22,702 bases of DNA from a virus. The stretch is from IMG/VR virus record IMGVR_UViG_3300045920_000048, positions 1 through 22,702 of that record; one strand, 5' to 3'. Shown here in pieces: positions 1,355 through 20,500 of this stretch (the first letter of the stretch is position 1; each line of letters opens with the position of its first letter). Both the position numbers and the translations under genes were made by a program. Under the pieces are notes generated by a model that did not search any database, was not told the origin of the DNA, and worked only from the letters and a program-made list of their open reading frames with translations.

Positions 1355-1951
1355 CTACTGCGCCTTCGCGGCGGCGGCTTTGATACGGCTCAAGGCGCCG
1401 CCGCCGAACGGCTCCTCGATTTCCGTTTCCGCGCCGCGATGCGCGGCCGCGTGGAAGCCGGCGGCCCCGCTGTAATCGACGGGACGGATCGAGGCCGCGT
1501 ACTTGTCGAGCGTTTCGACGCTCATGGCGTCGAGCTCGGCAGCGCCGAATGCGCACGCTTTGTTCGCGAGCACTTCGGACTTGAGTGATGCACGTCGAAC
1601 GGCGGCGTTGATCGCATCGCCGGACAATGCCGTGGTGACTGCGCTCGTGATCATCGTTTGGAGCTTCCCGAGCGTGAGCGGTTCCTGGGAAGCTGCCGCT
1701 GCGGCGTCGGCCTCGGCCTTCGCTTTGGCTTGCGCCTTCATCACGGCCTCCTCCTCCTCTTTCTTTTTGCCATCGGCGCCGTAGTTCTTCTGGATTGCCT
1801 TGATCCACGCCGACAGACCGGCCAGTTGCTTCTCGCTCATTTTCTCGAGCTCGGCCGTGTCGATGTTCGCTTTGATCTCGGCTTGCTGATCCGCGGGAAG
1901 CATCGCGATCATTGCGACTAGGCCGGCGGCGAGGGTTTTCACGTTGCTCAT
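1355..1951 (-). CDS. Candidate nested scaffold protein from internal in-frame start
   Basis: Within the protease/scaffold gene an in-frame ATG at 1951 (residue Met262) is preceded by AGGAG at 1961-1965 with a 9-base spacer. It lies exactly at the joint between the DUF2213 part and the helical, charged scaffold-like part. Translation from it would give a 198-residue protein with a Leu/Ala-rich helical start (MSNVKTLAAGLVAM), a basic-acidic patch and a helical end. Nested scaffold genes in the same frame as the protease are established in lambda (C and Nu3) and several other phages. This is inference from the ribosome site and domain border; the same AGGAG could also arise by chance from the Gln-Glu codons. 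Confidence 0.45.
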   Translation of the reverse strand: MSNVKTLAAGLVAMIAMLPADQQAEIKANIDTAELEKMSEKQLAGLSAWIKAIQKNYGADGKKKEEEEAVMKAQAKAKAEADAAAAASQEPLTLGKLQTMITSAVTTALSGDAINAAVRRASLKSEVLANKACAFGAAELDAMSVETLDKYAASIRPVDYSGAAGFHAAAHRGAETEIEEPFGGGALSRIKAAAAKAQ

Positions 1952-2734
1952 GGTCGGCGGCTCCTGGCAGTTGCAGTCGTTGGGCTTGAGTCCGAGAGCC
2001 CGCATGAGCGTCGACAGTGCGTTCGCGATCGGTTTGCGCTCGTCGTTCACTCGTGGAGCTCCGCAGCCGTCCGCAATACTGCACGCGCCGGTATCACCTG
2101 GCAAGAGCGCAACGTGGTCCGGTCGAATGTTCACGTGCTTGCGGTTGTAGGGTTTGCCCTTGAACTCGCCGTGCGTCAGTAGATCGTCGGCGAAGTAGGC
2201 CGTTGAAAGTTCGATCATTTCGCCTTCGCGCATCGCGGCCAGAAGCGGCGCGAAGCCGAGCGAATCCATGCGTTGCTCGTCGAGCCAGAATTCCGCCTTG
2301 AGGCTATCGCCGTCCATATGCGCGCCGAAAACCGTGCCCGCGGTGCGCTCGAGAATGTCCGGAAAGTTCGCGCTGATGTACTTGCCGTTCTCTTGGGGAT
2401 GCGCGATCGGAATCGGCCGGCCGTTCCACGCTTCGGCGAATTTGCCGAGCTCGTCGGCCGTTACCAGCGCCTCATTCAGCACGCCCTCGACAGCGAGCAC
2501 GGCGGGCACGACCGTGTGCATCTTGCCGTTGAAAAGTTCGCGGCGGATCGCAACGGCGCCGGAGAATTGAACGCGTAGATGGTGGACCTCGACGTTCGCT
2601 TTCGACTCGCGATAGATCGAGTGACAGATCGCCGCGGCTTGTGCGCCATCCTCGGCGGTGCCCTCGTCGATCACGATCGGAACGCAACGCGAGACGAAGT
2701 CGTTCTCGCTTTCACCTTTCGACGGCCGAGGCAT
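1355..2734 (-). CDS. DUF2213-family prohead protease fused to scaffold-like C-terminus
   Basis: This 459-residue protein starts at ATG 2734 with an AAGGAA site upstream and overlaps the preceding head morphogenesis gene by 23 bases. Residues 1-45 hold a short Cys-containing motif (SKGESENDFVSRC, then AAAICHSIYRE) that is often fused to phage head proteins. Residues about 65-240 match the DUF2213 pattern as I know it: VLAVEGVLNEALV, FAEAWNGRPIPIAHP, SANFPDILER, IELSTAYFAD, NIRPDHVALLPG and ACSIADGCGAPR. This domain is regarded as a head maturation protease. The remaining part (about 262-459) is Ala/Lys/Glu-rich and helical with a KKKEEEE patch near 325, as expected for a scaffold that is removed during maturation. 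A strong internal start at 1951 may make the scaffold part separately. Confidence 0.8.
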   Translation of the reverse strand: MPRPSKGESENDFVSRCVPIVIDEGTAEDGAQAAAICHSIYRESKANVEVHHLRVQFSGAVAIRRELFNGKMHTVVPAVLAVEGVLNEALVTADELGKFAEAWNGRPIPIAHPQENGKYISANFPDILERTAGTVFGAHMDGDSLKAEFWLDEQRMDSLGFAPLLAAMREGEMIELSTAYFADDLLTHGEFKGKPYNRKHVNIRPDHVALLPGDTGACSIADGCGAPRVNDERKPIANALSTLMRALGLKPNDCNCQEPPTMSNVKTLAAGLVAMIAMLPADQQAEIKANIDTAELEKMSEKQLAGLSAWIKAIQKNYGADGKKKEEEEAVMKAQAKAKAEADAAAAASQEPLTLGKLQTMITSAVTTALSGDAINAAVRRASLKSEVLANKACAFGAAELDAMSVETLDKYAASIRPVDYSGAAGFHAAAHRGAETEIEEPFGGGALSRIKAAAAKAQ

Positions 2735-3728
2735 GCGCGTTCCTTGTCGGGTCGATCCAGTTGAGAACTACGCCGCTGCCCCCGACCACTTTCGGCCGCC
2801 ACGAGCAGCGACAGTTCGGATGGAGCGGGATCATATTACGGGCTTCGTCGATCTCAAAGACCCGGCCCTCCATTGGCTCGCACAAGTTACACACGAGCTC
2901 GTCGCCGGCCGTGATCCATTCGGCCTCGACCTCGACGCCCTCGATGCCCGCTTCTTGGTAGGAATTGAGCGTGGCGTCGGCGTGCGCCGCGATAACCTCC
3001 GTGCGCGCGATCACGCGCGCGCGCGTAATTCCGATCTTTTCGACACGATCCGCGAGAATCCGCGCGAGTTGTCGCGGGTTTCGACCTTCCGCGAGCCCTT
3101 GCGCGAGTGTTTTCGAGATTTGCCGGTCCATTTCCTGAGTGACGCCATTGAGGGCCGAGAACACGCGGGTGTATATCTGCCCGACTCGATCGGCGTGCAC
3201 GGGCCGATTGAACGCGCTCGAGATCCACGACTCGGCGACTTTCGCGCCAGCGGCCCGGAGCCGGGCGCCGGCCTCGGCGATCCCGCGCTGGTACGCCGTG
3301 TCGATGTACACGTTGGCCCACGAGGTACGGGCCGCGCGCTCGAGCGGGAAGCCCTCGGCAACGCCGAGGATCGCGAAGCGTTCGGCATCCTTGAGCCAGC
3401 GCATAAACGCCGCGACCTTTTGTTCGCTCCTCGGGAAGTCGAACCGCGGCCGGTTCACGTGGAACGCCTCGCGAATCGATGCCGCCTTGAGCCCTTGCGG
3501 CTCGAGGTTGAAACCATCGAGGTCGACCACTTGCTGCTCGATCAATTCGATTAGCCGGCGGAAGCGTTCGACCATCGCCGCTTCGAATTGCCGCCTTAGC
3601 GTAACTGTCCGGGTCGGGTCGCGATGCCTTCGGGCCTGTATCGTGATCGGCGGCGAGGATCGATCGAGCATCGCCGCGGAAAGCGCGGGCGGATCCACTC
3701 GCCATTCGTGGCGTGGTTTATGACTCAT
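2712..3728 (-). CDS. Head morphogenesis protein, SPP1 gp7 / Mu F family
   Basis: The gene starts at ATG 3728, which overlaps the stop of the glycosyltransferase/ATP-grasp gene as ATGA; an open frame extends further upstream but has no conserved features. The product has 338 residues. The N-terminal two thirds is helical. The C-terminal domain is the MuF signature: ARVIARTEV at 238-246 followed by a helix, then EWITAGDELVCNLC with C280 and C283, and HPNCRCSWRP with H303, C306 and C308. The Cys/His set probably binds zinc. MuF proteins associate with the portal and are packaged at low copy number in the head. In most phages the gene follows portal directly; here four other genes lie between them. 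Confidence 0.88.
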   Translation of the reverse strand: MSHKPRHEWRVDPPALSAAMLDRSSPPITIQARRHRDPTRTVTLRRQFEAAMVERFRRLIELIEQQVVDLDGFNLEPQGLKAASIREAFHVNRPRFDFPRSEQKVAAFMRWLKDAERFAILGVAEGFPLERAARTSWANVYIDTAYQRGIAEAGARLRAAGAKVAESWISSAFNRPVHADRVGQIYTRVFSALNGVTQEMDRQISKTLAQGLAEGRNPRQLARILADRVEKIGITRARVIARTEVIAAHADATLNSYQEAGIEGVEVEAEWITAGDELVCNLCEPMEGRVFEIDEARNMIPLHPNCRCSWRPKVVGGSGVVLNWIDPTRNAHASAVER

Positions 3729-5392
3729 GCGATGAGCTCTGCGACCTCCACGGCAATGTCGAACGAATCGCGGCCCGTTCTGGAAGCCGGCGATAAGTTC
3801 GAGCGGTGATAGCACGGGCAGTCGGCGTAAGCGTCCATAGTCCACGCGCTCGAGAGCTCGAGCACGTAGCCGCGGCCGACCGCATCGAACACGATGTCGA
3901 ACGCCATCCATTGCGTTTCGAGCTCGGCGGCGACGAGCTTGGCGAGCTCGAGCGCGGCGCGCGCACGCCCCGAGGAATCCCCGGCGATCCGCAGCGGCAC
4001 GTGCTGGCCCGATCCCGAGGCGAACGGGGTGCCGGGGCGGTTCTCGCGCACGAGCCCGTAGAGAAAATCCCCGACCACGCAAACGCGATAGTCGCGCGCG
4101 TTGCCCGCGATGAAGTCCTGCCAGTAGACATAGCCGCGCTGATGCCGGCCGTATACCGAGGGCACGCCGGCCCCCGAGAACACGCGGTCGACCTCGAGGC
4201 GCGCCTGCTCGGTGTTGTTCACGAGGCGCACGCACTTGCTCGCCGAGCCCTCGAGCGCCTTCGATACGAACGGGTAGCGCATCACCGTGAGAGCTCGCAA
4301 CGCCTCGGCCCGCGAGGTTGCGTAGATCGTCGGCGGGAGCCACGGCCCGAGCGGCCGAAGCTGCGCGACTTTATCGTCATACCAGCGGGCCTCCTCGAGC
4401 CGCGGGAGCGTGCGGTGCCCGAGTTGCGCGAGCTCCTCGACGAGCGCCTTCGATCGCTCGCGCTCGCCGCCCTGCTGATCGAGGCGCACGAACGCGAGGC
4501 CCGGCGAGGTCGGGCGGCCACGCGTGAACAGCGCGACATTGTGCCCGCGCTTCTGAGCGGCGACCGCGAATTGCCGGCCCCATCCTTTGCGATCGTCATA
4601 AGCGTGGAGCCGCGCCGGCCGTTCTCGTCGCGGCCGGAGCGGGCGGCCGTCCCACGAATCGCGTACCCAAGCCCAGGGCACGTCGCGCGACCACGGCTTC
4701 ACCGTGCCGGGATAGAAAACCATGCGCGCGCCTCGAGGCGGCCCGACTTGCAACGACGGGTACTGGCGCACGAGCCGCGGCGAATAGTGGAACACTCCGT
4801 CCGCCTCGGCCCACGTCGGCACCGCTCGAGCCCCGAGGAGGAGCGACAGCACCGCCTGATCCGAGCCAATGAATCGCTTGCGCGCTTCGCCCGCGATGTT
4901 CTCGGGAGCCTCCATGAACCGAGCGTAGATATCGGGCCGCGCGCCGGCTTTGAGCATCACGAGGCCGCCGTTGTAATGCGCGCGCGCGCACGTGCCGCGG
5001 TAGAGCTTGAGCGGGGCCGAGTCCGGCCGAATCCGGAAAAGATCGTCGACCGAGCCGTGGAACGTGACGTCGACGTCCATGCTCACGAGCCAGTCGGCGC
5101 CGTAGCGTTGTGCCGCGTCGGGCCGGAAAAGATCGAGCCGGCGAAGGCATTGCGGCGCGCCTGTCGATTCACGCCAATGGCGCACGGCCACGTTCGGAAA
5201 GTCGGCCGGCAGCGGAATCACCGCGATCGAAGGGTCGAGGCCGCCCGGAATGTTCGTGACGCACGCGAGCTCGACGTCGGGAAGCGTGCAGTGCTCGCGG
5301 AAGCGGCGCGCCCACGTGTTGACCTTTTCGGCGTCGAATCCGTGACGGTCCGGTTCCTGCCGCCATAGCCAAACCATCGCGCGCGTTTTCAT
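3725..5392 (-). CDS. GT8-like glycosyltransferase fused to an ATP-grasp domain
   Basis: ATG at 5392 overlaps the preceding stop as ATGA and gives 555 residues. Residues about 1-240 look like a GT8-type glycosyltransferase: a nucleotide-binding start (MKTRAMVWLWR), a metal-binding DVD at 106-108 in WLVSMDVDVTF, an acceptor-side NGG at 141-143, GSDQAVLSLLL from 176, and FYPGTVKPW at 226-234, which resembles the HxxGxxKPW end motif. Residues about 260-555 look like a pre-ATP-grasp plus ATP-grasp ligase: Lys in PFVSKALEGS, then VYWQDFIAGNARDYRV, and MAFDIVFDAVGRGYVLELSS, with acidic residues near 499 and 512 as metal ligands. The fold of part two is RimK/carboxylate-amine ligase-like. I know no named family with this order. 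A gene of this kind between structural genes suggests modification of a virion component, but substrate and acceptor are unknown. Confidence 0.72.
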   Translation of the reverse strand: MKTRAMVWLWRQEPDRHGFDAEKVNTWARRFREHCTLPDVELACVTNIPGGLDPSIAVIPLPADFPNVAVRHWRESTGAPQCLRRLDLFRPDAAQRYGADWLVSMDVDVTFHGSVDDLFRIRPDSAPLKLYRGTCARAHYNGGLVMLKAGARPDIYARFMEAPENIAGEARKRFIGSDQAVLSLLLGARAVPTWAEADGVFHYSPRLVRQYPSLQVGPPRGARMVFYPGTVKPWSRDVPWAWVRDSWDGRPLRPRRERPARLHAYDDRKGWGRQFAVAAQKRGHNVALFTRGRPTSPGLAFVRLDQQGGERERSKALVEELAQLGHRTLPRLEEARWYDDKVAQLRPLGPWLPPTIYATSRAEALRALTVMRYPFVSKALEGSASKCVRLVNNTEQARLEVDRVFSGAGVPSVYGRHQRGYVYWQDFIAGNARDYRVCVVGDFLYGLVRENRPGTPFASGSGQHVPLRIAGDSSGRARAALELAKLVAAELETQWMAFDIVFDAVGRGYVLELSSAWTMDAYADCPCYHRSNLSPASRTGRDSFDIAVEVAELIA

Positions 5393-6108
5393 AGGTGCTC
5401 GATCCACTCGTCGTCATCGCGAATTATGCGCCGAGACCGTTCCGCCTCGAGCTCGTCGCGTGCGTGCTGCGCGTTTACCGCTGCGACGATCCGCTGCAGC
5501 ATGGGCAGCCCGGCCTCGATCGTCGGGCGGCCGAATCCATTGCGCGACGTGAAGCCTTGCGTGCTGATCGTGTGGAAGGGGATCGGCTGCGCCTTGGGCT
5601 CGTGCCGGCGCTTCATGATGCGTCGGAGCCAGCCACCGCCCGAGACCGGCGGCGCCGGGCCTGGCCCCGGTCCCGGCCCAGGGCCGCCCGTGATCGTCGG
5701 CACGCCGAAAAAGTCCGGATCTGCGAAGCCTATGGGCGCAATGGTCGCGTTCAAGGCGACCGTGCCGAACGCGCTCACATTCGCAAAAGCCTCGGGCCCG
5801 ATCGTCGCGTTCAGCGATACCGTGCCGAAGGCGCTGGCGTTGGCGAAGCCGGCCGGCGCTATCGTCGCATTGAGAGCCGGAGTGCCGAACGCGCTTACAT
5901 TCGCAAAACCGGCGGGCGCGATGTTGGCGTTGAGAGCCACAGTGCCGAACGCCGAGACATTGGCGAAGCCGTTCGGAAATATCTCGCCGCTCGCTGCCTC
6001 GAGCGGGACGATCCACGCTGGATCTTTGGCGGTGAGTGTCGGCGCCCACCATTTGCGCCAGCCGTCAGGGTTGCCCGGCCCGCCCGCGCGCTGAATGCCC
6101 GCGCGCAT
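5389..6108 (-). CDS. Putative virion protein with 20-residue tandem repeats and Pro-Gly linker
   Basis: The gene begins at ATG 6108, six bases after the previous gene, and encodes 239 residues. Residues 47-140 contain four full and one partial copy of a 20-residue unit close to GFANVSAFGTVALNATIAPA. Similar G-x-A-x-x-x-x-F-G-T-x-x-L repeats occur in phage and bacterial surface or virion proteins and are expected to form short beta-strand pairs. Residues 143-154 are an alternating Gly-Pro linker, followed by a basic patch (RRIMKRRHEPK) and a helical charged C-terminus (RDELEAERSRRI). There is no signal peptide. The first 46 residues are Trp-rich (GWRKWWAP, AWIVP). Neighbours are virion-like genes, so a structural role such as an appendage or a linker protein is likely, but the function is not known. 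Confidence 0.6.
   Translation of the reverse strand: MRAGIQRAGGPGNPDGWRKWWAPTLTAKDPAWIVPLEAASGEIFPNGFANVSAFGTVALNANIAPAGFANVSAFGTPALNATIAPAGFANASAFGTVSLNATIGPEAFANVSAFGTVALNATIAPIGFADPDFFGVPTITGGPGPGPGPGPAPPVSGGGWLRRIMKRRHEPKAQPIPFHTISTQGFTSRNGFGRPTIEAGLPMLQRIVAAVNAQHARDELEAERSRRIIRDDDEWIEHL
5689..5970 (-). repeat. 60-bp in-frame tandem repeat, four full and one partial unit
   Basis: Starting from residue 47 of the encoded protein, the DNA repeats with an exact 60-base period (units ending near 5910, 5850, 5790, 5730 and a partial unit to 5689). Each unit contains the plus-strand word GTGCCGAA followed by a variable part and a TCGCAAA or TGGCGAA word. Units differ mostly at third codon positions and at a few residues (Val/Pro/Ser at position 11, Asn/Thr, Ala/Gly), so they are diverged copies and not a recent expansion. 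The period is a multiple of three and the frame is kept throughout. Confidence 0.85.
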
Positions 6109-6114
6109 GGCGCG

Positions 6115-7233
6115 CTATCCGTGGACGGCCGTGATGCCGGCGTTATAGGTCGTCGCGCTCGTGGAGGGCTTCATGACCTCGAGCCACGCGAGCGCCGCGT
6201 CGTCGAAAATTCGCACGAGGTTGAACGCCGTACCGATGAAGTCGTAAAGCGTGGTCATGTTCGCGAGCGGGCACGGCATCCAGCCGAGCGGGTGCCCAAT
6301 CACGAAGTTGATAACGCCCGTGGCGACAGCGGCCGAGCATTGCATTTGGTCAAGCTGTTGAATGCCCGTGTCGTCCGTCGCGAGCGGCGCGAACCATTGC
6401 TGCGCCGGGTGATCGAGGCGCCGCACGATCGCGGCCGAGTTCCCGGTCAAGCTCGGGAGCGTCGCGCCCGTGTTGCCGGCCTGATCGGTGTACAAGCAAA
6501 CGGTCCAGTTGTGCGCGGTCGCGGCGAGCGCGGTGCCCCCGACCTCGACGAAAAGGAAATTCCCCTCGGCCGAATCCTGGGCGCCCTGGGTCGTTGATTG
6601 ATAGCGCGTCGGGACGCCGGTCACGGATTCCGTGGCCGTGGAGTTCATCGTCTTGTTCACACCGAACAGCCGGTCGTACAGCAGCAGCGTATTGCCCGCG
6701 TCCTCGCACGAGACGTAGCCCGCGACCAAATGCCGCGTATCCGTGCTCACGTTGTCGAACGGCATCGCGCCGGTCGTCGCGTCGGTCGGGATCGTGCCGC
6801 CCGGCGCCGCCGCCGAGTTCGCGCCGGCCGCCGGTTGCGGGCCTACGCCCCACAGCGAGTTCGTGACGCCCACGACGCCCGTGGCCCCGGCCTTTTGCCA
6901 GTGGAACTCGCGGCGCTTGCCGGCGGTCGCTTCGGCGATCAGATCGGAAAGGCTCGAGAATCCCCCAAGTTGCCGCGACAGAATCGCGAAGCGTTCGGTG
7001 CGTAGGCGCCGCTCACGCCGGAGTATCTCGTCGGCACGATCGTAGGCGCACGCCAATTGGCCGCCCTCGATCGGCCCGACAAAATCGCCGCCACGCGCGG
7101 CGAACACACGACCGGGCACGCCCATGAGCGCAATGGGCGGCCCATACCAATCGCGCATCGCCCTCGAGACGTGCGCGACGTTGCGAGCCCCGAGCCAACG
7201 CTCGAGCCGATCCGAATGAGTGTGCAGGCTCAC
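6115..7233 (-). CDS. Putative virion structural protein, 372 residues
   Basis: GTG at 7233 overlaps the previous stop as GTGA. The N-terminal third is charged and helical (RADEILRRERRLRTERF). From about residue 115 the protein is Gly/Ala/Thr-rich with many short beta strands: HWQKAGATGVVGVTNSLW, LLLYDRLFGVNKTMNST, NFLFVEVGGTALAATAHNW, then LPSLTGNSAAIVRRLD and NFVIGHPLGWMPCPLA. I recall proteins with this composition and the TGNSA and WFAPLA motifs next to portal and head genes in other phage genomes, annotated only as structural. No enzyme motif, signal peptide or membrane segment is present. Together with the 130-residue protein before it, it may form part of the head, connector or an appendage. 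Confidence 0.6.
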   Translation of the reverse strand: MSLHTHSDRLERWLGARNVAHVSRAMRDWYGPPIALMGVPGRVFAARGGDFVGPIEGGQLACAYDRADEILRRERRLRTERFAILSRQLGGFSSLSDLIAEATAGKRREFHWQKAGATGVVGVTNSLWGVGPQPAAGANSAAAPGGTIPTDATTGAMPFDNVSTDTRHLVAGYVSCEDAGNTLLLYDRLFGVNKTMNSTATESVTGVPTRYQSTTQGAQDSAEGNFLFVEVGGTALAATAHNWTVCLYTDQAGNTGATLPSLTGNSAAIVRRLDHPAQQWFAPLATDDTGIQQLDQMQCSAAVATGVINFVIGHPLGWMPCPLANMTTLYDFIGTAFNLVRIFDDAALAWLEVMKPSTSATTYNAGITAVHG

Positions 7234-7622
7234 AGAGCGAAAATCCGATTCGCGCCGTTATCCCAAACGACCGGGCACACTTGCGACGCCTCGGGAGTGA
7301 ACGGCAAGCCCACGGCACTATCCACGTAGGCGAGCAAGCGCGCGGTCGCGTCGCTGCCCGTGTGCTGGAAAATGATCAGCGCGTTGCACGCGCTTCCGGC
7401 CGTGGCCGTGATCGTCGTGTCGGCTGCGTCGAACACGCCATCGGGGAACGCTTTCGAGCCGAGCGCCGCCGATCGTCCGTTGTCCACGGCCCCGAGGTCG
7501 GCGATAAACGTGTCGGTCGGGTCGAACGTGTACGTGCTCAACACGAGCATCGCCCGAATGTCATCGGTCAGAATGTTCGGGAAGGCGTAGAGCTCTTTCG
7601 CGTTCGGAAAAATCGCGCTCAT
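7230..7622 (-). CDS. Small putative virion protein, 130 residues
   Basis: ATG at 7622 overlaps the portal stop as ATGA. The 130-residue product follows a pattern common to a family of small phage proteins: an opening PNAKELYAFPNILTDDIRA, a strand ML VLSTYTFDPTDTFIADLG, a middle GSKAFPDGVFDAADTTIT, and an end with LIIFQHTG, LLAYVDSAVGLPFTP and WDNGANRIFAL. Proteins with this ending are, as far as I know, predicted beta-sandwich virion components, with no enzymatic role. Translational coupling to portal suggests that it is made together with the portal. The exact position in the virion cannot be told from sequence. Confidence 0.6.
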   Translation of the reverse strand: MSAIFPNAKELYAFPNILTDDIRAMLVLSTYTFDPTDTFIADLGAVDNGRSAALGSKAFPDGVFDAADTTITATAGSACNALIIFQHTGSDATARLLAYVDSAVGLPFTPEASQVCPVVWDNGANRIFAL

Positions 7623-9727
7623 TCGTCGCTTTCCTCCTCGATCACGTGGTCGATAAAGCCGGCGGCGTTGCGCACCGCCGTTTTCTTAATTCTGCGGGGC
7701 CGATCGCGCTCGCGGATCAGCGGCACGATAGTTTCGCGCACGGCCTCCGAGACGCTCGTCGCGACTGTAGTGGCGAGCTCGCGCAACGTGTTCGTGCGTC
7801 GCTCCTCGGCCTGGCGCTGCGCGTTCACACTGTATTCGATGATGTGCTCGGCGAAGTTGTCGTCGAGCTCCTCGAAAATCTCGGGGCCGAGTTCGATGCC
7901 GCCGCGGTACGGCTCAAGCTCCTCGACGTTGAGCTCGCCCACGTCGTAGGTGAGCGTCACGTGCGGCTGATAGGTCGCGTAATCCCACGAGGCCCCCGCG
8001 CGCTTTATGTCCTCGTGGCGCCACGCAAGCGACGAGCTCGCAAAGTGAAGCACCACGGCACCGTTCGGCCCGAGCGCCTCGACTACTCGGGGGCCGCCCG
8101 GAGCCACGGACATTTCGCCAGCGGCGTCCGAGTCGAACGCCTGGCCCGCCTTGATCCAATCGACCGGGCTGCGGCTGTAGGCGATCGTGACGTGCATCGC
8201 TTCGCCGAGCGTGCTCTTGAGCCCTTGCTCTTTCGCCCAACGCTCGAGCGCGCGCCAGTTTTTCACTTGCCGGCGGACGTACAGCGGCCGCGGCGTCGCG
8301 TTCACGATCGGGCTGGCCGGGGCCCCATCGCCGTTCGTGGCGGGAGGATCGCCCCGCCGGGCCTGCCGATGTTGGTCGAATTGAACGACGACCTGATCGT
8401 CCTCCTCGGGGAGCGGCGCCGATCCGGGCGGCCCGTCGACCACGTCGAGTTGTTCGGGCATGAACTCGGATTCCTCGTCCTCGCCGAGCCAGCGCCGGAA
8501 CTCCTCGGTCGGGATCACGAGCGAAGCGCCTGGCGAATTGGCGTAGGCCGCGACCGCCTCGGCTTTAGTCTTTGCGATCGTCGCGCGCTTTTCCTCGCCG
8601 AGCGCGTCGGACTCCGACCAAATGACCTCGAACTCGCCGCCCGGCGGTTCCGCGAGCACGCCGAGCTCGATCATGCGCGAAACGAACGGGGTAATGATCA
8701 TCGGCCCGGCGAACACGGTGCGCCGTTCCGCCACGCGCGCGGCCCAATTGTTTTCGTCTTGCTCGCTCGAGAGCTCGCCACGCTCGGAGCCGACGAGGAT
8801 TCGCTTCGGGATGCCGGTCGCGCCCGCGATCATGTCCAATTGCTTGTCGATGTTTTGCGATGCGTCCGTGCCCTGAGTCGGCGCCGCGAGCATTTGCGGC
8901 TCAACGCCGCGCACGCGAACATCGCGCCGCAGCCCGTGTTGCGCCTCCTCGAGCTCGGCGGCCATCGCCGCTTTTTCGGGCTCGGTCCATTCGACGTCGG
9001 AGTCGGCCTTCCACGCGCGCATGCCGCCGGCATTCTGCCAGTAGATTTCGGCCGATCCGCCCAAGAGCTTGTCGAGGTCCATGAGCCGATTGAAAACGCG
9101 CTCGAGCCGCGGCACGCCGAGCGAGCGGTCGGACATCGCGCGCTCGGCAACATGCAGCGTTCGCGAGTGATGCACGTTGATCGACTTGACGCCGCCGCCC
9201 GATCCTGTCCACTCGACGCCGCTCGCCAAGAGATACGTTTCCGGCGTCCCGTAGCGCGGGTCGCGCGGTTCGCTGATCCACTTCGTAATCGAGGCCGAGA
9301 ACTCGCTGTGCGGCGTGAGGTACAAGAGCTTGTGCTTTCCGGTCACGGGTTGCGTCGTTGACTGACCGCCGTCGAGGCCGAACATCAAAACGCCGTAGTG
9401 CCCGATGCCCGTGAGCCGATCGAGCCGCGTGAGAACGCTCCACAATTGGAATTGTTCGGCGAATTTCTCGAACTCGAGCTGCCACGGCGTATCGGGCTGC
9501 GCATCCTTCGGCTTTACGACCGGCGCTTCGCGCCACGTCGCGTCGGGATACGCGTCGACGATCCGCGCGGCGATGTCGCCTCGAGAATAGACGTCGAAGA
9601 ACTCGCCGACCGAGAGCGCGCGAGGGTAGCCGAAAATCTCGTAGAGATCGCGGTTGCCGCCGAAGTGCTGGCCCGCGAGGAGCGAGAGCGCGTACCGGAA
9701 CGTGCGTCGCCAGAACGGTTGCGTCAT
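7619..9727 (-). CDS. Portal protein (DUF1073-like) with C-terminal Acb1-like 2H phosphoesterase domain
   Basis: ATG at 9727 follows a GAGG site; the gene encodes 702 residues, longer than a usual 450-550 residue portal. Residues 1-430 match the DUF1073-type portal: SRGDIAARIVDAYPDATWRE, LDRLTGIGHYGVLMFGL, NVHHSRTLHVAERA, LMDLDKLLGGSAEIYW, DMIAGATGIPKRILVGSERG and QDENNWAARV. After an acidic and Pro-rich linker (about 420-475), residues 478-620 form a separate domain with two HxT motifs, H512-V-T514 in MHVTIAYSRSP and H589-V-T591 in YQPHVTLTYD, plus VVLHFASSSLAWRHEDI. This is the 2H phosphoesterase layout and closely resembles the anti-CBASS nuclease Acb1, which cleaves cyclic oligonucleotide signals. 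A charged helical tail ends the protein. The portal part is firm; the anti-CBASS activity is inference from motifs. Confidence 0.85.
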   Translation of the reverse strand: MTQPFWRRTFRYALSLLAGQHFGGNRDLYEIFGYPRALSVGEFFDVYSRGDIAARIVDAYPDATWREAPVVKPKDAQPDTPWQLEFEKFAEQFQLWSVLTRLDRLTGIGHYGVLMFGLDGGQSTTQPVTGKHKLLYLTPHSEFSASITKWISEPRDPRYGTPETYLLASGVEWTGSGGGVKSINVHHSRTLHVAERAMSDRSLGVPRLERVFNRLMDLDKLLGGSAEIYWQNAGGMRAWKADSDVEWTEPEKAAMAAELEEAQHGLRRDVRVRGVEPQMLAAPTQGTDASQNIDKQLDMIAGATGIPKRILVGSERGELSSEQDENNWAARVAERRTVFAGPMIITPFVSRMIELGVLAEPPGGEFEVIWSESDALGEEKRATIAKTKAEAVAAYANSPGASLVIPTEEFRRWLGEDEESEFMPEQLDVVDGPPGSAPLPEEDDQVVVQFDQHRQARRGDPPATNGDGAPASPIVNATPRPLYVRRQVKNWRALERWAKEQGLKSTLGEAMHVTIAYSRSPVDWIKAGQAFDSDAAGEMSVAPGGPRVVEALGPNGAVVLHFASSSLAWRHEDIKRAGASWDYATYQPHVTLTYDVGELNVEELEPYRGGIELGPEIFEELDDNFAEHIIEYSVNAQRQAEERRTNTLRELATTVATSVSEAVRETIVPLIRERDRPRRIKKTAVRNAAGFIDHVIEEESDE

Positions 9728-9764: not shown

Positions 9765-11393
9765 TTACCACACGCCGGCCCGCTTACGCTTGAGCCGTTG
9801 CGACGGCGCGTAGGCCATCATCACCGCATCGCCGTGATTCGGTGAGGCGATGCCGTCCGGCACCTTGTCGACCTCGATCTTGCCGGCTTTGTTGATCGAG
9901 TAGACCGGCTGCGATAGTTCCACGATCACGCGCGAAAGGTCCGCGCAGTCGGGCGCTATGCTGATAATGTCATCGGGGTCGAACGGTAGGCCCTGCAACG
10001 CGCGAACGGTTTGCTGGAAGCGAAACCGCAGATCCCACCAGCCCTGGGCCTTGGCGTTCGCGAACATATCGCGGTTGCGCCGATCGAGCGGCAGGCCGTC
10101 CGGGCCGCGGACGAACTTGTCGGCGTCGACGAGGGCCTCGCCCGAGGCGCTCCCGCGGAACATACCGACGTCGATTACGGGCGGCTGGCCCTTCCCGCCG
10201 CGGCCTTCGTTGATCTTGCGCGCATCACCGCGCACTCCGGCGCCGAGGCCGTCGCCATCGAAGTCGAGTTCGCGCACGCCACGAAGGTCACAGATTGCAA
10301 AGGCCCGCTCCGTGGTCTCGAAAAGGTCCTCCGTATCGGTGCGCCCGCTCCACGCTTGCACGTGCTCGAGCAGGATGCCGTAGCGGATCGCGAGCGCGTT
10401 TTTGTCCATGCCTCGATCGGCAACGTCGAGAGCGGCGCGGCGAGATCCGGACGGGGTTATTCGGAGCCTCACGTGCGCGCCGATCGCTTGCTGTACCCAT
10501 GCGGCCGGGATGATCACGCCTTCGACCGAGGCCGTGTAGCTGATATCGATTTCCTGAGCGCGAGTGATCGGGTCGAGTTTCTCGCATTGCTTCGCGTACC
10601 ACGCGTCGTTCTTCCGCGGGTCGTCGCGCCAGTGGAACGTGAACACGTCGATGAAGCCGCTATGCCGGCGCTTCGCGAAACTGTTCGCCATGCCCTTCAC
10701 GCTCGAGGCATCAATCCGGCAATCCGTGGTCGAGGCGAGCGACGCGTCGACGAGCTCGGGCCGCTCAAGATGCGCGGCCTCGTCAACGAACACGATCGCC
10801 TTGCGGCCGCCACGGCCGATGTTGTCACCGGCTTCGCCCGTGACGCTCGAGCCAGTAGCCGGGAACGTGAGCCGCATGTGCGCGCTGTTTTCCTCGAGCG
10901 ACCAGCCGGCCCTGAACTCTGCCGGCAGATTGCCGAGGAACATTCGGGCCTTGTAGAAAAGCGTGTCCGGGTCGCCCGATCGGTCGAGCTTGTCCTCTTT
11001 CGAGGAGCCGACGCCGATCATCATTTCGTGGCGGAAGATACAGAGCGTGCAGGCGAGCGCCATCATGATCCACGAGGCGCCGACGTCACGCGACTTTTCG
11101 ATGATCCCCGGCTGCCCCGAGCGCCAGTGCGCAAGAATCCACGCGATGAGCTCGCGCTGCTTCTGGAATAGCACGAACGGCATGATCGAGGCGCGGCCCT
11201 GAGCCGCCACGCGCGGGTCGACCGTCACGCCCCATCCGGAAATGAAGTCGGCCGGGTTGTCTCGGTAATACTTGCGGAGGTTCGGCAGTCGGCGCGGATC
11301 ACGCCGGAGCTCGGAAAGGCGCCGGCCGCGTTCGTTGAAAATCTCGGCCGGATCGGGCGCGCGCCAATCGTAGGTTTTCTCAAGCGGGTCCAC
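9765..11393 (-). CDS. Terminase large subunit
   Basis: The gene starts at GTG 11393, three bases after the small terminase stop, and encodes 542 residues, normal for a TerL. The N-terminal ATPase has a phage-type Walker A variant, EKSRDVGASW at 99-108, and a Walker B IVFVDEAAHLE at 200-210. The C-terminal nuclease has the acidic set expected for an RNase H-like fold: ALDVADRGMD at 321-330, ELDFDGDGLG at 375-384 and a late acidic D522 in SPNHGDAVMM. The enzyme cuts concatemeric DNA and pumps it through the portal. It sits between small terminase and portal in the standard order. Whether packaging is headful or cos cannot be decided from this sequence. Confidence 0.92.
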   Translation of the reverse strand: MDPLEKTYDWRAPDPAEIFNERGRRLSELRRDPRRLPNLRKYYRDNPADFISGWGVTVDPRVAAQGRASIMPFVLFQKQRELIAWILAHWRSGQPGIIEKSRDVGASWIMMALACTLCIFRHEMMIGVGSSKEDKLDRSGDPDTLFYKARMFLGNLPAEFRAGWSLEENSAHMRLTFPATGSSVTGEAGDNIGRGGRKAIVFVDEAAHLERPELVDASLASTTDCRIDASSVKGMANSFAKRRHSGFIDVFTFHWRDDPRKNDAWYAKQCEKLDPITRAQEIDISYTASVEGVIIPAAWVQQAIGAHVRLRITPSGSRRAALDVADRGMDKNALAIRYGILLEHVQAWSGRTDTEDLFETTERAFAICDLRGVRELDFDGDGLGAGVRGDARKINEGRGGKGQPPVIDVGMFRGSASGEALVDADKFVRGPDGLPLDRRNRDMFANAKAQGWWDLRFRFQQTVRALQGLPFDPDDIISIAPDCADLSRVIVELSQPVYSINKAGKIEVDKVPDGIASPNHGDAVMMAYAPSQRLKRKRAGVW

Positions 11394-11396
11394 GGA

Positions 11397-11888
11397 TCAC
11401 TTGCCGCTCACGAGCTCGAGGTACGCGCGCGCGGCCTCCTCCTCGGTCGCATCCTCGGCAATCTCGAACGCGATCGGCTTGCCGCCTGGGCCGATGTGCT
11501 CGCGGCGCGCGGCCGCGGCTCGGAACTCCGGATGCCGGCGGTCGAGCATGTGGACCAGGCACTTGTCGGAAATGTGCAGCCGCTCCTCCTCGGTCACCGT
11601 GGTTTTCGTAATCGTGCCGTGCTCGTCGGTCTCGACGACCGTGCGCTTCGTTTTGACCGGCTCGCCGATCGTGGCGCGGCGGGCCTCGATCGCGGCCACT
11701 GTGTCATTGAACCGCGCCTCGGCATCCTCCCATTGTTCGGCGAACTCGGGGTCGTGCTTTCGCTTGTAGTAGAGCCACACACGGCTCACGCCGATCGACT
11801 CGGCGCACGCGGACACGTTGCCGTTCTTCCCGAGTTGCTCGAGGAACAAGCGGCGGCGCTTTTTCGTGAGGGCCTTTTCGCGCGGCAT
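11397..11888 (-). CDS. Probable terminase small subunit
   Basis: ATG at 11888 overlaps the stop of the ParB-methyltransferase gene as TAATG. The 163-residue product starts with a basic stretch (PREKALTKKRRRLFLEQL) and then a helix-turn-helix: GNVSACAESIGVSRVWLY, the arrangement seen in DNA-binding small terminases. The middle is a charged helix (FAEQWEDAEARFNDTVAA), followed by a Thr/Glu-rich beta part and a C-terminal region with ISDKCLVHMLDRRHPEFR, typical of small terminases that end in a DRRHP(E/D)xR-like motif. It would recognise the packaging site and load the large subunit encoded next. Family assignment comes from motif and position. Confidence 0.83.
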   Translation of the reverse strand: MPREKALTKKRRRLFLEQLGKNGNVSACAESIGVSRVWLYYKRKHDPEFAEQWEDAEARFNDTVAAIEARRATIGEPVKTKRTVVETDEHGTITKTTVTEEERLHISDKCLVHMLDRRHPEFRAAAARREHIGPGGKPIAFEIAEDATEEEAARAYLELVSGK

Positions 11889-13261
11889 TACGGCGTCGTG
11901 GTCTCAGGCTTCGGTGCGGGTTTCGGTTTGCGTGTACGCTTCGGGGCCGGCGTTGGCGCCTTCGCGGCCCGATCGCTCACGACCTCGCGATAGGTCGGGC
12001 CGTCCGGAGCGTTCAGCCGCGCTTCTATTTCGCGGACCTTCATCATGCGCCCAATGGTCACGTCGCACCACTTGGGCTCAATGTCCACGGCGATGCAGCG
12101 CCGGCCGAGTTGATCCGCGGCGACCATCGTTGAACCGCTCCCGCAGAACGGCTCGAGCACGACGTCGTCCGGCCCCGTGGAGTTCTCGATGAGCTCGCGC
12201 ATTAGCTTCACGGGCTTCGCGGCGTTGTGCTGGCGCTCGAGGCCGGCGGGCCGATCGTGGCGCAAGATGTTCGGCTTGTGAACGGGCCGCACGCCGACCG
12301 CGCGGTGCCCCATCGCGGTTTGCGGCGGGAGCTTCGCGAAGAATGCGACGAGCTCGTGCGTATTGGCGTAATTGCTCCCGAGCCCCGAGCCGCCCTTATC
12401 CCACACGAGCAAGTTGCGGAGCTCGACCGTCTCGACGCGCTTGCGCATCATGGCGAGCGTTGGGTAGCTGCGCCAGTCGCAGAAAATGTACGCGTGCCCG
12501 AACCACGGCAGATAGTCCCGCACGAGCCGAAGCACGCCCTCGAAAAACGGCTGCACCATCCGATCGTCGGCAATGTCAGATGCCATCCCGGTCGCGCTTC
12601 CATAGATCGCGTAGGGCGGATCGGTCGCGATGCATTGCACCGTGTAGTCGCCCACGAGCTCGCGCAGCGATTCGCCGTAGAACACGTCGAAGCATCCAAG
12701 GCGGTGCCGGCCGATGTGCCACACGTCGCCGGGCCTCGTGATCGGATCGACCGGGATCGTGCCGAACTCGTCCTCGCCCTCTTGCCCTGGGTCGGCTCCG
12801 GGCTCGGCCTTCGCTGCGCGGCGCCGGACGTCGCGTTGCTCCTCGAGCGTGAAGCCCGCGAGCTCGAGCGAGAAACCCGCCCCGAGGAGCTCGTCGAACT
12901 CGAGAGCCAGCGTCTTGTCGTCCCATCCGGCTTTTTCGGCTAGCCGATTGTCGGCGATCACGTAAGCCTTCGCCTGGATCTCGGTTAGGTGATCGAGGCG
13001 AATGCACGGCACGAACTCGAGGCCGAGCTTGCGCGCGGCGAGCACTCGAGCGTGTCCGGCAATGATGCCGGCGGCCTCGCCTTTCGGATCGGTGCGGATC
13101 AGCACGGGATTTGTCCAGCCGAACTCGCGGATGCTCGCGGCGATCGCGGCGACTTGCTCCTCGGAATGCGTGCGGCTGTTTCGTGCGTAGGGAATGAGCC
13201 GCTCGATCGCAACGCGTTCGATTTTCTCGGGAGTGATTGCGCCCTCGGGTTTCTTCGCCAT
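11888..13261 (-). CDS. ParB-domain DNA methyltransferase (N6-adenine or N4-cytosine, beta class)
   Basis: ATG at 13261 has GAGGAG three bases upstream; the product has 457 residues. Residues about 16-110 form a ParB/sulfiredoxin-like domain (IERLIPYARNSRTHSEEQ, FGWTNPVLIR, IIAGHARVLAARKLG, AYVIADNRLAEKAGW). The methyltransferase follows: ATDPPYAIYG with DPPY at 214-217, then HNAAKPVKLMRELI at 345-358, and EPFCGSGSTMVAA from 370 for SAM binding. Motif IV before motif I is the beta-class order, and DPPY favours adenine-N6 over cytosine-N4. The C-terminus is a Pro/Lys/Arg tail with AT-hook-like character. Such fusions are frequent in phages and mobile elements, often beside terminase genes. It probably protects phage DNA from restriction or marks it. 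Target sequence is unknown. Confidence 0.88.
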   Translation of the reverse strand: MAKKPEGAITPEKIERVAIERLIPYARNSRTHSEEQVAAIAASIREFGWTNPVLIRTDPKGEAAGIIAGHARVLAARKLGLEFVPCIRLDHLTEIQAKAYVIADNRLAEKAGWDDKTLALEFDELLGAGFSLELAGFTLEEQRDVRRRAAKAEPGADPGQEGEDEFGTIPVDPITRPGDVWHIGRHRLGCFDVFYGESLRELVGDYTVQCIATDPPYAIYGSATGMASDIADDRMVQPFFEGVLRLVRDYLPWFGHAYIFCDWRSYPTLAMMRKRVETVELRNLLVWDKGGSGLGSNYANTHELVAFFAKLPPQTAMGHRAVGVRPVHKPNILRHDRPAGLERQHNAAKPVKLMRELIENSTGPDDVVLEPFCGSGSTMVAADQLGRRCIAVDIEPKWCDVTIGRMMKVREIEARLNAPDGPTYREVVSDRAAKAPTPAPKRTRKPKPAPKPETTTP

Positions 13262-15753: not shown

Positions 15754-16364
15754 AACCGGCTACACGTCGGGAGCGCGACGAGGTAGCCGCCATCCCGCAG
15801 AATTCGCTCGCAGCGGTGCGTTTCCTTGAGCAAGTCATCGAGCCACGCGAGACCGCCCTGGAATGCGAGCGCGGCCCTGAGCTCGGCGGCGTCCGTCTCA
15901 TAGTTGCCGGGCTCGAAAAGGCAAAGGTCGTCGACCACGATCACGTCGCCGGACAAGTCGCGATGCTCGCGGATCACCGAAACCTCGCCAGCGATCGGCA
16001 CGAGCATGGCCGGCGACTGCTCGGCCACGGTCATTGGCAGGGGATCGAGACGCCCGCTTCCAGGGAAGTGCGCGTCAAGAAACCAAAGCACGCGCCGATC
16101 GAGCGCGTCGAGCTCGACCGCGATTTCCTCGAGCAAGTCCGTCGAATCGCCCCAATAAAGCCGAACGCGCGGCTCGGTCGCGAACACGACGCGGTTGCGG
16201 TGATACGTCTCGTGGTCGATTTCGATCGACCGAATATCCACGAGCTCCGGCACTTGTAGCGCCGCGAGCAAGCTGTGGCCGTGGCCCGTGCCGGTTTCCA
16301 CGAGCGCGTTGAGCTCGTGAGCTCGCACGAGGCCCGGCAATCCGAGCCGGGAAAGCGTTCCCAT
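15750..16364 (-). CDS. Class I SAM methyltransferase-like protein
   Basis: ATG at 16364 overlaps the stop of the DPPY methyltransferase as TAATG; an open frame continues upstream but has no conserved content. The 204-residue product has a Rossmann methyltransferase layout: ALVETGTGHGHSLL at 20-33 (motif I), an acidic strand end RSIEID at 45-50, VRLYWGDSTDLL from 67 (motif III-like), RVLWFLDAHFPG at 91-102, and DVIVVDDLCLF at 130-140. The pair DAH and VDD could bind a metal, as in small-molecule O-methyltransferases of the TylF type. There is no NPPY-type DNA methyltransferase motif, so DNA is an unlikely direct substrate. Target may be a sugar, a base precursor or a protein. Confidence 0.6.
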   Translation of the reverse strand: MGTLSRLGLPGLVRAHELNALVETGTGHGHSLLAALQVPELVDIRSIEIDHETYHRNRVVFATEPRVRLYWGDSTDLLEEIAVELDALDRRVLWFLDAHFPGSGRLDPLPMTVAEQSPAMLVPIAGEVSVIREHRDLSGDVIVVDDLCLFEPGNYETDAAELRAALAFQGGLAWLDDLLKETHRCERILRDGGYLVALPTCSRL

Positions 16365-17050
16365 TAGTGCGCCCTCCAATCGAAAAGCCGCCCCTGTGCG
16401 TGCGCGGCTTCGATCCGCTCGCACGCTTGCTTGTACCAGCACCACTCGCGCTCGATCCCGAGGAACGGAAGGCCGAGGCGCGCGCACGCTACGCCAGTCG
16501 TGCCCGTGCCCATGAACGGGTCGACGACGTGCCCCTCGGGGTGCATCGCAAGTTTCGCGAGGAGCCAATCCATAACCTCGACCGGCTTCTGGTACGGGTG
16601 CCCGGTCGCGACTGTATCGCGATTCAGGCGCGGCGTGCTCGCCTCGAGCAAGTCCGTGCCGCCGAAAAGTTGGAAGCCCTCGGCCGATAGCACGACGATC
16701 GGCTCAACGGACCACGCGACGCGCCCCGCGACTTGTGGCTTCGGGTCGCGCTTGCGCATGTAGAGAAACCGGCATTTTCGGTACCCGGCCTCGGTCGCCG
16801 CCGCGAGGAGCTCGGGCATATTGGCCGGCGCGTAGAACGTGAGCACCGGGGCCGGCGCGACTTCGCGGAGCCAATCGACGCTGCAAGCATCCCACGGTTC
16901 GCGCACGAGAGCCGCGGCCGGGTTGCTTCCCAGGCCCGATTCCGGTCGACGCCATCCGCCGGTTCCGTAGGGCGGATCGGTCACGACGACGTCCTTTGCG
17001 CGATGCACGAGCGTGCCGAGCATCCCGCGGGAGTCGCAGCAGAAAAGCAT
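16364..17050 (-). CDS. DNA methyltransferase, beta class, probably adenine-N6
   Basis: ATG at 17050 is preferred because family members begin shortly before a phrase like FCCDSRGMLGTL; ATG at 17077 in the same frame is the alternative. The product has 228 residues. VVVTDPPYGTGG has DPPY at 25-28 (motif IV). ATGHPYQKPVEVMDWL at 148-163 and VVDPFMGTGTTGVACA at 175-190 (motif I) follow. Motif IV before motif I is the beta order; DPPY favours N6-adenine. The target-recognition part between them is short, so the enzyme is compact. It follows the C5-methyltransferase by 13 bases and no restriction enzyme is encoded nearby, so it is an orphan protective methylase. Target sequence cannot be predicted. 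Confidence 0.87.
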   Translation of the reverse strand: MLFCCDSRGMLGTLVHRAKDVVVTDPPYGTGGWRRPESGLGSNPAAALVREPWDACSVDWLREVAPAPVLTFYAPANMPELLAAATEAGYRKCRFLYMRKRDPKPQVAGRVAWSVEPIVVLSAEGFQLFGGTDLLEASTPRLNRDTVATGHPYQKPVEVMDWLLAKLAMHPEGHVVDPFMGTGTTGVACARLGLPFLGIEREWCWYKQACERIEAAHAQGRLFDWRAH

Positions 17051-17063
17051 CGCCCGGCCGATC

Positions 17064-18362
17064 CTACGCGAGAACATGGTCGAGCTTGCGGCCGATCCAC
17101 GCGAGCACGGGCACGGCCATCGAATTGCCGAGCGCCGCGTAGCGCAGCGTGTCCGCGGCCGGCGCGATCGCTCGCCGCCGTTTCGGGCGGTACGGGATCT
17201 CGGTGAAGTCATCGGGGAATCCCTGCAAGCGTTCACACTCGCGCGGTGTGAGCCTCCGAACCGCGACGTCGGAGACCATCGCCCTCGAGGCGCCGCCATC
17301 GGCGGACCGCAACGCCGGGCTCACCGTTGAGAGCTCGAGCGCGAGGCCCTCACGGTCGCGCATGGCGAGAGCGACGGCGGGCGGCTTCGCGCTCGAGGCA
17401 AGGGCGGCCGTCTCGGGATCGCACGCGGAGCGGTTCTCGGGGTGCGTCAATTGCGTTTCATCGAAGCACGCGACCACGTTGCGCAGCCGGAAGTTGTTGC
17501 CCTCGTGCGTGTAGTTCCGCGCGTTCATCGCCGTCAACGGCTCGGCGATCTCCTCGACGATCACGTGGTTGCCGGTCGCCTCCTCGGCGCCCGTTCGCGG
17601 GCCGGCTCCGTGCGAGTTCGAGAGCAACGGCCCCGCGACGAGGAGCCCTTCGCGGCCGTCGCCGCCACACGGGCTGCTACCGTCGAGAGCGCGCGCTGTA
17701 AGTGTTCCGGAAGCACGCGCCCCCGGCGCTCGGCGCGGCGGATGATCCCCGCGCACGCTTTCGCGCTCAAGTAGTACCGGGGCGCGATCGTGCCAGCGTC
17801 CAGAATCGACGAGAGCGAACAAGCGTTCGCGCCGCTGCGCCACGCCGAACCATTGCGCGTCCAGCACGCCCCACTCGAGGAGGCCGATCTTGCCGAGCGC
17901 CAGCCCTTCAGTGTCCCATCCGTCTCGGGGCGGCTCGAGGTCGGCCCCTGCCAGCGTAGAAACCACTTGAGCAAAATCTCGGCCGCCGCGGTTCGTGAGC
18001 GCCCCCGGCACGTTCTCCCAAAGAGCGAATCGGGCGCCGCAAAAGCGTCGTGCTGCATTGAAAAGCCTCGCGTAGTGGAAGAACAACGCCGAGCGCGTGC
18101 CCTTGAGGCCGGCGCGCTTACCCGCAACGGATAGATCCTGACACGGCGTGCCCCCGACCACGAGGTCGAGCGGCCCGAGCTCGGCGATCGCCGTGCTCGT
18201 CAATTTCGTGATGTCGCCCAAGTTCGGCACGTGCGGCCAATGATGCGCGAGCACGGCCGAGCAATAGCGGTCGTTCTCGGCGAAGGCGGCCGGCTGCCAT
18301 CCGAGCGGCGCCCAGGCGATCGTCGCGGCCTCGATTCCGCTGCAAAGGCTAAGGTAACGCAT
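17064..18362 (-). CDS. DNA (cytosine-5) methyltransferase
   Basis: ATG at 18362 gives 432 residues beginning MRYLSLCSGIEAATIAW (motif I) and overlaps the preceding stop by 14 bases. All main motifs are present: GGTPCQDLSVAGKRAG with the catalytic Cys74, WENVPGALTN with the ENV around 116, QRRERLFALVD from 176 (motif VIII), RRLTPRECERLQGFPDDF near 370 (motif IX) and LRYAALGNSMAVPV near 408 (motif X). A long target-recognition region, about 200-360, contains SGTLTARALDG and EEIAEPLTAMNAR repeats of the kind common in phage enzymes of this family. It makes 5-methylcytosine. No cognate restriction endonuclease is present, so it likely defends phage DNA against host restriction. Confidence 0.94.
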   Translation of the reverse strand: MRYLSLCSGIEAATIAWAPLGWQPAAFAENDRYCSAVLAHHWPHVPNLGDITKLTSTAIAELGPLDLVVGGTPCQDLSVAGKRAGLKGTRSALFFHYARLFNAARRFCGARFALWENVPGALTNRGGRDFAQVVSTLAGADLEPPRDGWDTEGLALGKIGLLEWGVLDAQWFGVAQRRERLFALVDSGRWHDRAPVLLERESVRGDHPPRRAPGARASGTLTARALDGSSPCGGDGREGLLVAGPLLSNSHGAGPRTGAEEATGNHVIVEEIAEPLTAMNARNYTHEGNNFRLRNVVACFDETQLTHPENRSACDPETAALASSAKPPAVALAMRDREGLALELSTVSPALRSADGGASRAMVSDVAVRRLTPRECERLQGFPDDFTEIPYRPKRRRAIAPAADTLRYAALGNSMAVPVLAWIGRKLDHVLA

Positions 18363-18615
18363 CACTCGCCGCCGCGACGATTGCCGCCAGTCGTTCGAGC
18401 GCATGGAATTCGGTCATTTGATGCCAGCGCCGATCCTCGAGAATCGCGACAGCCTCGCATGGTGAGAGCCCGCCGCGTTCCCGTAGCCTGGCGAGGCTTT
18501 GCATGTGATTCCGCTGCGCCTGTTTCTCGTGGCCGGCGATGATTCGCCACGGTAGCGGAGCCAATTTCACCGTGCGGAATTGGCTCACGATCGGCATGGG
18601 CGCCTCGTCACGCAT
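18349..18615 (-). CDS. Conserved small phage protein, 88 residues, unknown function
   Basis: ATG at 18615 overlaps the winged-helix-like gene by 8 bases; the end overlaps the C5-methyltransferase start by 14. The sequence has a conserved-looking core LAPLPWRIIAGHEKQAQRN followed by LARLRERGGLSPCEAVAILE and DRRWHQM. Small proteins with the pattern H-x-x-QAQRNH and RGGLSxxEAVAxLExR are, to my memory, frequent in phage early regions and lack a known function. It is helical, soluble and without a signal peptide. The tight overlap suggests that it is made at a ratio coupled to the methyltransferase. Confidence 0.65.
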   Translation of the reverse strand: MRDEAPMPIVSQFRTVKLAPLPWRIIAGHEKQAQRNHMQSLARLRERGGLSPCEAVAILEDRRWHQMTEFHALERLAAIVAAASDALP

Positions 18616-19666: not shown

Positions 19667-20500
19667 CTAGCGCATCATGGAAGCGGCCAGCCGCGCGAGT
19701 TCCGCGGCCGGCGGGGCGGTCGGCGTATCGACTGGCAGATACGGGGCCTCGGGCGCGACCCAGGCCCGCGGATTCAAGGGCACGATCGGCCGCAAGGCTA
19801 CGCATGGCGTCCGGAAATGGTTCGCCAAGATCGTCATCCCCGAGATAACGCCGATGACCACGCGCGCGTGTTGAATGATCCCGGCGACTTGCGGGAGCGA
19901 CGTGCGCCCGACGAGGTCGACCACTTTACCCGCGACCGAGCGCGAGAAATTCGCATCCCACGCGGCGCCGATCAGCGTCGGCGGGGCGCCCGTGATGATG
20001 CCGAGCTCCTCGATTAGTGCGCGCCAGTAGTCCGGCCCGAGGTTCGGAGCCCAGGCGGCGTTTACGCCATCGCTCGAGGCGTAGACCACGGCGCCCGGAG
20101 CTCGCCCCGGCGCGATCGTGTTGACCGGAAACGCCAGATCCGGCGGGCCGAGCTCGGGGAGCCAATCGGCGAGCATCCCGCCACGATCGAGCACGCCGTT
20201 CGGCCAAAGCGTCGTGTGAAGCCCCGCGTTGTTGTAGTTCGAGTAGCCAACGGTGAGGCATCCCTGATCGGGGCGGAAGGGCCGCTCGGCGGTCGCGGTC
20301 ACAAGCTGCGGCACCATTTTCGACCAATCGAGCGCGCGCGTAAGGCTCGTTTTCTGCACGTACATGGTGAGCGTGTGCGCGCCGTAGAGCCGGCGGATCG
20401 CCGCGAGCTTGGTCAATACCCAATAGCAGTCGCCCACGCCCGGGGGCGCGCCGATGCGGACGTGGCGCGCGGGCCTTATATGCTTCGGGAAGAAAGCCAC
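19667..20500 (-). CDS. GT9-like glycosyltransferase (second of pair)
   Basis: GTG at 20500 is the start: a GAGGAG site lies eight bases upstream and the open frame before it is low-complexity and lies over the first glycosyltransferase. The product has 277 residues: MAFFPKHIRPARHVRIGAP, then GVGDCYWVLTKLAAIRRLYG (G-x-G-D at the start of the first Rossmann unit), and a C-terminal unit with PTLIGAAWDANF, VVDLVGRTSLPQVAGIIQHA and RVVIGVISGMTILANHFRTP. The last stretch parallels the heptosyltransferase pattern D-x-x-G-x-[TS]-L-x-x-x-A-x-[LI] and GxDSGxxHLA, but ISGMT replaces DSGxxH, so catalysis may differ. A role in adding a sugar to LPS, virion protein or DNA base is possible. Overlaps the upstream partner by 25 bases. 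Confidence 0.66.
   Translation of the reverse strand: MAFFPKHIRPARHVRIGAPPGVGDCYWVLTKLAAIRRLYGAHTLTMYVQKTSLTRALDWSKMVPQLVTATAERPFRPDQGCLTVGYSNYNNAGLHTTLWPNGVLDRGGMLADWLPELGPPDLAFPVNTIAPGRAPGAVVYASSDGVNAAWAPNLGPDYWRALIEELGIITGAPPTLIGAAWDANFSRSVAGKVVDLVGRTSLPQVAGIIQHARVVIGVISGMTILANHFRTPCVALRPIVPLNPRAWVAPEAPYLPVDTPTAPPAAELARLAASMMR

Follow-up and report, generated by a model that had tools for sequence, protein, structure and literature searches.

The window, a 22,702-base virus record from IMG/VR, encodes a phage portal protein whose C-terminus is, by profile match and modelled fold, a complete Acb1 domain of the 2H phosphoesterase type. Activity of this domain would make an essential structural protein double as a counter-defence enzyme linked to head assembly. 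The recurrence of the fusion on dissimilar portals, together with close relatives that carry or lack the domain, amounts to a natural experiment on the time and place at which phages need to destroy CBASS signals.

The portal gene and its Acb1 domain

The gene is a single open reading frame on the minus strand (positions 7619–9727; 702 amino acids plus the stop codon), with matches to Phage_portal_3, Acb1 and phrog_146. Its portal core (residues 45–393; 8549–9595, minus strand) matches the Pfam family Phage_portal_3 (PF06381; E = 3.2e-33), the phrog_146 portal profile extends across residues 23–623 (E = 1.2e-81), and Foldseek comparison of the full-length model returns the portals of Sf11, Pam3 and T1. 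The terminase large subunit gene lies directly upstream in a packaging-module context (9765–11393, minus strand; phrog_2, E = 1.1e-26), and profile, fold and terminase-adjacent position all agree that the window protein is a phage portal. The next gene after it (7230–7622, minus strand) belongs to phrog_644, which has no known function, and its ATG shares four bases with the portal stop codon. MuF, DUF2213 and other genes follow downstream, the DUF2213 product being a candidate head maturation protease within the gene cluster of the portal (1355–2734, minus strand; DUF2213, E = 1.8e-7; phrog_530, E = 1.7e-11).

The original prediction had placed an Acb1-like 2H enzyme at the portal C-terminus, between positions 7868 and 8296 (residues 478–620), behind a linker rich in proline and acidic residues and with two HxT motifs 77 residues apart. 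The location on the minus strand within one reading frame is correct, the motifs are as described, and the linker is present (residues about 415–478; 8294–8485, minus strand), mostly modelled at low confidence with pLDDT of 47–74 in blocks; relatives that lack the domain terminate inside this region, near the equivalent of a VVQF stretch. The Acb1 domain itself occupies residues 481–627 (7847–8287, minus strand). What was overlooked is that a further 75 residues lie beyond it (628–702; 7622–7846, minus strand), predicted to form two helices (634–674 and 683–701). Most relatives stop 1–10 residues past the Acb1 domain and lack such an extension, which found no match among 50,697 phage records.

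Several lines of evidence identify the domain as Acb1. The Pfam profile PF23474 matches it with 135.5 bits, against a curated cut-off of 27 (E = 1.5e-39), and a phmmer search of the PDB finds the solved Acb1 7t26 at E = 4e-12; in the ranking of the PDB sequence search the Pam3 portal 8hds comes first (residues 126–624) and FBB1 Acb1 third. A model of the domain built with AF2 from 49 sequences (pLDDT 90.9) also bears out the proposed fold with its paired HxT site, the best PDB match by Foldseek being FBB1 Acb1 (7t26; E = 1.1e-8, TM 0.77 of target), followed by 7t27 and then by the Burkholderia phage BCSR5 phosphodiesterase and E. coli LigT. Among viral models the matches are mostly Acb1-named or unnamed 2H relatives. 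Assignment to LigT or to RNA end healing was rejected, as the LigT_PEase and 2_5_RNA_ligase2 profiles reach only 16.6 bits (cut-off 23.3; E 0.0092) and 18.5 bits (cut-off 27; E 0.0022) and structure places Acb1 above LigT; chance occurrence of the HxT motifs is ruled out by the Acb1 profile, the structure and the conservation.

The functional residues of T4 Acb1, whose roles are taken from PMC9117128, were mapped onto the window by alignment. The catalytic tetrad H44, T46, H113 and T115 corresponds to H512 and T514 of the first motif (H512-V513-T514; 8186–8194, minus strand) and H589 and T591 of the second (H589-V590-T591; 7955–7963, minus strand), and the adenine-contacting E141 is kept as E619. 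Three of the four stacking positions are aromatic (Y12 is Y483, F107 is Y583, W147 is F625) and the fourth, W74, is E550, with some uncertainty in the alignment of the hairpin. The His and Thr of the first motif are invariant in all 83 distinct fused domains. In the second, in a sample retrieved in part by patterns that included this very motif, His is present in 82 of the 83 (the exception being a row short of full length) and Thr in 80, or across 96 rows Thr in 93, Ser in two and a gap in one; both motifs are intact in all 12 complete fused proteins retrieved through the portal half alone. The domain shares with the Acb1 enzymes of T4 and FBB1 (PMC9117128; PDB 7t26 and 7t27) the 2H fold, the HxT/HxT tetrad, the adenine-contacting Glu and, as far as the alignment can be relied on, aromatic residues at three of the four stacking positions, and differs in being the C-terminal domain of a portal, whereas those are free enzymes of about 150 amino acids. 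It further departs from them at the W74 position, occupied by Glu or Asp in all but one of the 96 fused rows, and in the invariants that the fused class has of its own (R486, N490, D523, W524 and R547); because of these two differences the substrate preference of the fused class may differ from that of T4 Acb1.

Portal C-termini point into the head interior, and one virion structure bears on where the domain is found. The portal of cyanophage Pam3 (8hds) has the same architecture of portal plus C-terminal Acb1 domain and is homologous to the window protein across residues 126–624, with domains 43–45% identical, although its second motif reads HIS and it has no C-terminal extension. The Pam3 chain has 621 residues by sequence and 442 in the Foldseek library entry, such that about 180 are missing, and comparison of the window domain model with that entry by Foldseek gave no match; the Acb1 domain thus appears to be absent from the structural model. 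As the missing stretch is about as long as linker plus domain, the domain would be either flexibly tethered or cut off. The suggestion that the enzyme might be present at entry consequently gains no support here, the domain apparently not being in the model of the only solved virion portal with the fusion.

Distribution, exchange and selection

A search of IMG/VR confirmed relatives of the Acb1 domain at 299 places, of which the best 80, ranked by domain similarity, were kept for analysis; in nearly all of these the domain is at the C-terminus of a protein of roughly 600–700 amino acids. Pfam Acb1 matched 47 of the 48 full-length proteins aligned, the exception (L013) being a portal added as domain-free. 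The fusion is also present in about 30 phage records, with cultivated representatives infecting Pseudomonas, Rhizobium, Aminobacter and cyanobacteria; a scan of genome contigs with a single domain as query returned no relatives. The expectation that portal-Acb1 fusions would already be in databases was well founded, with phrog_146 covering both parts. This profile and the portals of phiPSA1, RHEph05, Ssp-JY39 and Erebus include the domain, but these portals are only about 27–36% identical to the window protein over their full length, compared with 36–58% in the domain alone.

The domain is C-terminal on three portal classes: class i, to which the window belongs; class ii, which accounts for 34 of the 48 sampled proteins; and class iii, which falls in another Pfam portal family (PF04860) and has no detectable similarity to either. 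Portals of classes i and ii share a median of 18.5% identity and their domains 55.7%, and class iii domains are 52–57% identical to those of the other classes, figures that the ranking of hits by domain similarity inflates. The ranking does not, however, account for the attachment to portals that are dissimilar, and from these comparisons the Acb1 domain has been repeatedly fastened to the same end of portals that are themselves unlike one another.

Gain and loss are also evident within class i. Many of its portals, retrieved through the portal half alone, end just past the core around a VVQF-like stretch and have no Acb1 domain, and in the flanks examined these domain-free portals have no separate Acb1 reading frame. 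A tree of class i portals has 38 rows, of which 14 are fused, 23 have no domain and one is undecided; its well supported branches force at least two gain or loss changes in the clade of the window portal. Synonymous divergence of the domain in some pairs is well below that of the portal (0.22 in the domain vs 1.12 in the portal for L051 and L056; 0.41 vs 0.81 for L069 and L075), which points to exchange of the domain between portals, and constraint at the protein level alone does not explain the low synonymous values. The domain tree has poor resolution and long branches that join one another, and indicates no more than that portal class has likely changed several times. The domain dN/dS is about 0.05–0.23 in most pairs whose dS is 0.1–1, so the domain is under purifying selection. 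Taken together, the pattern of presence and absence on the portal tree, the mismatch in dS and the dN/dS values show a mobile domain that the portal can do without and that selection maintains.

A few loci depart from the common arrangement. Separate-gene near relatives lie close to packaging genes in L018 (158 amino acids) and in phage ZHS (L002). The apparent fusions to a 'prohead protease' in DSS3P8 (L001, 3992–4444) and ZHS (2116–2715), so annotated, are instead separate genes of 150 and 199 amino acids that match Acb1 and are probably mis-named; the ZHS gene adjoins genes annotated as portals. In L096 (4848–5897) Acb1 is in a separate reading frame of 350 amino acids from stop to stop, with about 147 residues besides, and no portal family matched it. 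L017 (2564–4996, on the contig of L090) encodes an 811-residue portal with Acb1 followed by a C-terminal PBECR3-like nuclease domain, matched at 23 bits against a curated cut-off of 30, and would apparently carry two effector domains on one portal.

Proposed function and its alternatives

Fusions of 2H domains to portals, and a role for them against immune nucleotides, are already known. Iyer et al. 2017 (PMC5512222) describe fusions in which a 2H domain is joined to a MuF or a portal domain, propose that these act as RNases or degrade the nucleotides of nucleotide-activated defences, and say that these 2H domains were never found together with RNA ligases; a 2022 paper (PMC9503650) repeats the immune-nucleotide proposal for 2H-MuF and 2H-portal proteins, adding packaging and injection. 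The type of fusion is therefore not new, and neither is the proposal, although the passages of those two papers contain no experiment and do not touch on the independence of the fusions, swapping, or Acb1 residues. Hobbs et al. 2022 (PMC9117128) found nine of nine further Acb1 homologues active; their text makes no mention of portals and, as far as consulted, does not say whether any of the nine was portal-bound. In a literature search largely confined to papers available without subscription, no paper was found with an activity test of an Acb1 attached to a portal. New here are the recurrence on three portal classes, the swapping, the purifying selection, the pattern of presence and absence, the residue-level comparison with T4 Acb1, and the residues that the Pam3 model lacks.

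The reading that we favour, and consider moderately likely, is that the portal carries a working enzyme of the Acb1 type, which hydrolyses CBASS di- and trinucleotides mainly while late proteins accumulate. A catalytically competent 2H phosphodiesterase would hang by a flexible linker from the inward-facing end of the portal chain, and its translation would coincide with that of the other late structural proteins. Both free chains and newly formed rings would then cleave adenosine-containing cyclic di- and trinucleotides by metal-free acid-base catalysis at the HxT/HxT tetrad, holding back the abortive response of the host during head production. The portal would serve as an abundant and reliably expressed carrier that works without the domain, and such a role would account for the repeated attachment of one enzyme to one and the same end of different portals. 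Against this reading stand the replacement of W74 and the class-specific invariants, and also the small amount of cytoplasmic nucleotide that twelve copies enclosed in a head might encounter.

An opposite timing follows if the domain is packaged in the head, freed when the maturation protease cuts the linker, and ejected together with the DNA, in which case it would be at work within the first minutes after infection; of these steps, packaging and injection come from PMC9503650, and release by cleavage is our addition. Such delivery has been proposed in print for 2H-MuF and 2H-portal fusions (PMC9503650, PMC5512222) and agrees with the long linker, flexible by pLDDT, and with the candidate DUF2213/phrog_530 protease of the window. 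The L017 portal, with its nuclease-like PBECR3 domain after Acb1, would also suit a delivered cargo, as would the inward orientation of portal C-termini in general, while the Pam3 virion model, with 442 of 621 residues and no domain match, fits flexibility or cleavage alike. However, neither a cleavage site nor an ejected fragment is known, the intact portal remains in the particle, and the dose would be small at about 12 molecules per virion, and we regard delivery as unlikely. Rather doubtful, too, is a version in which the fused domains constitute a distinct, recurrently grafted class, with the portal as carrier of an immune-nucleotide hydrolase built into each particle, an altered substrate preference associated with the replacement of W74, and possible release by the maturation protease so as to act at entry.

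The remaining alternatives concern chemistry. The replacement of W74 and the class-specific invariants could accommodate an enzyme that repairs or generates 2',3'-cyclic phosphate ends on RNA, or an RNase, in place of one that degrades CBASS signals; this is within the chemistry of the 2H superfamily, and an RNase role is among the options in PMC5512222. It seems quite unlikely, given that the Acb1 profile is far ahead of LigT and 2_5_RNA_ligase2 and Acb1 is placed above LigT in structure, that no RNA ligase or polynucleotide kinase is among the window proteins scanned, and that co-occurrence with RNA ligases is not seen for these domains according to PMC5512222. The change of W74 to Glu or Asp beside a near-invariant tetrad could also reflect a nuclease that resembles Acb1 but whose substrate has shifted, perhaps to some other cyclic nucleotide signal or to a specificity that avoids decoys, but retention of the adenine contact as E619 and of aromatic residues at the other three stacking positions in the window makes this very unlikely. 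That the domain is a non-catalytic structural appendage, as its place in a structural protein and its apparent absence from the Pam3 model might suggest, is scarcely credible when the catalytic residues are near-invariant across 83 distinct domains, close portals do without it, and it is grafted on dissimilar ones.

Other genes in the window

Three DNA methyltransferase genes are located near the packaging genes (11888–13261, 16364–17299 and 17064–18404), encoding a fusion of ParB_N to an N6/N4 methylase, another N6/N4 methylase, and a C5 methylase. Weak glycosyltransferase matches are found at 19667–20848 (Glyco_transf_9, E = 1e-5) and 3725–5407 (phrog_1962, E = 3.5e-5).
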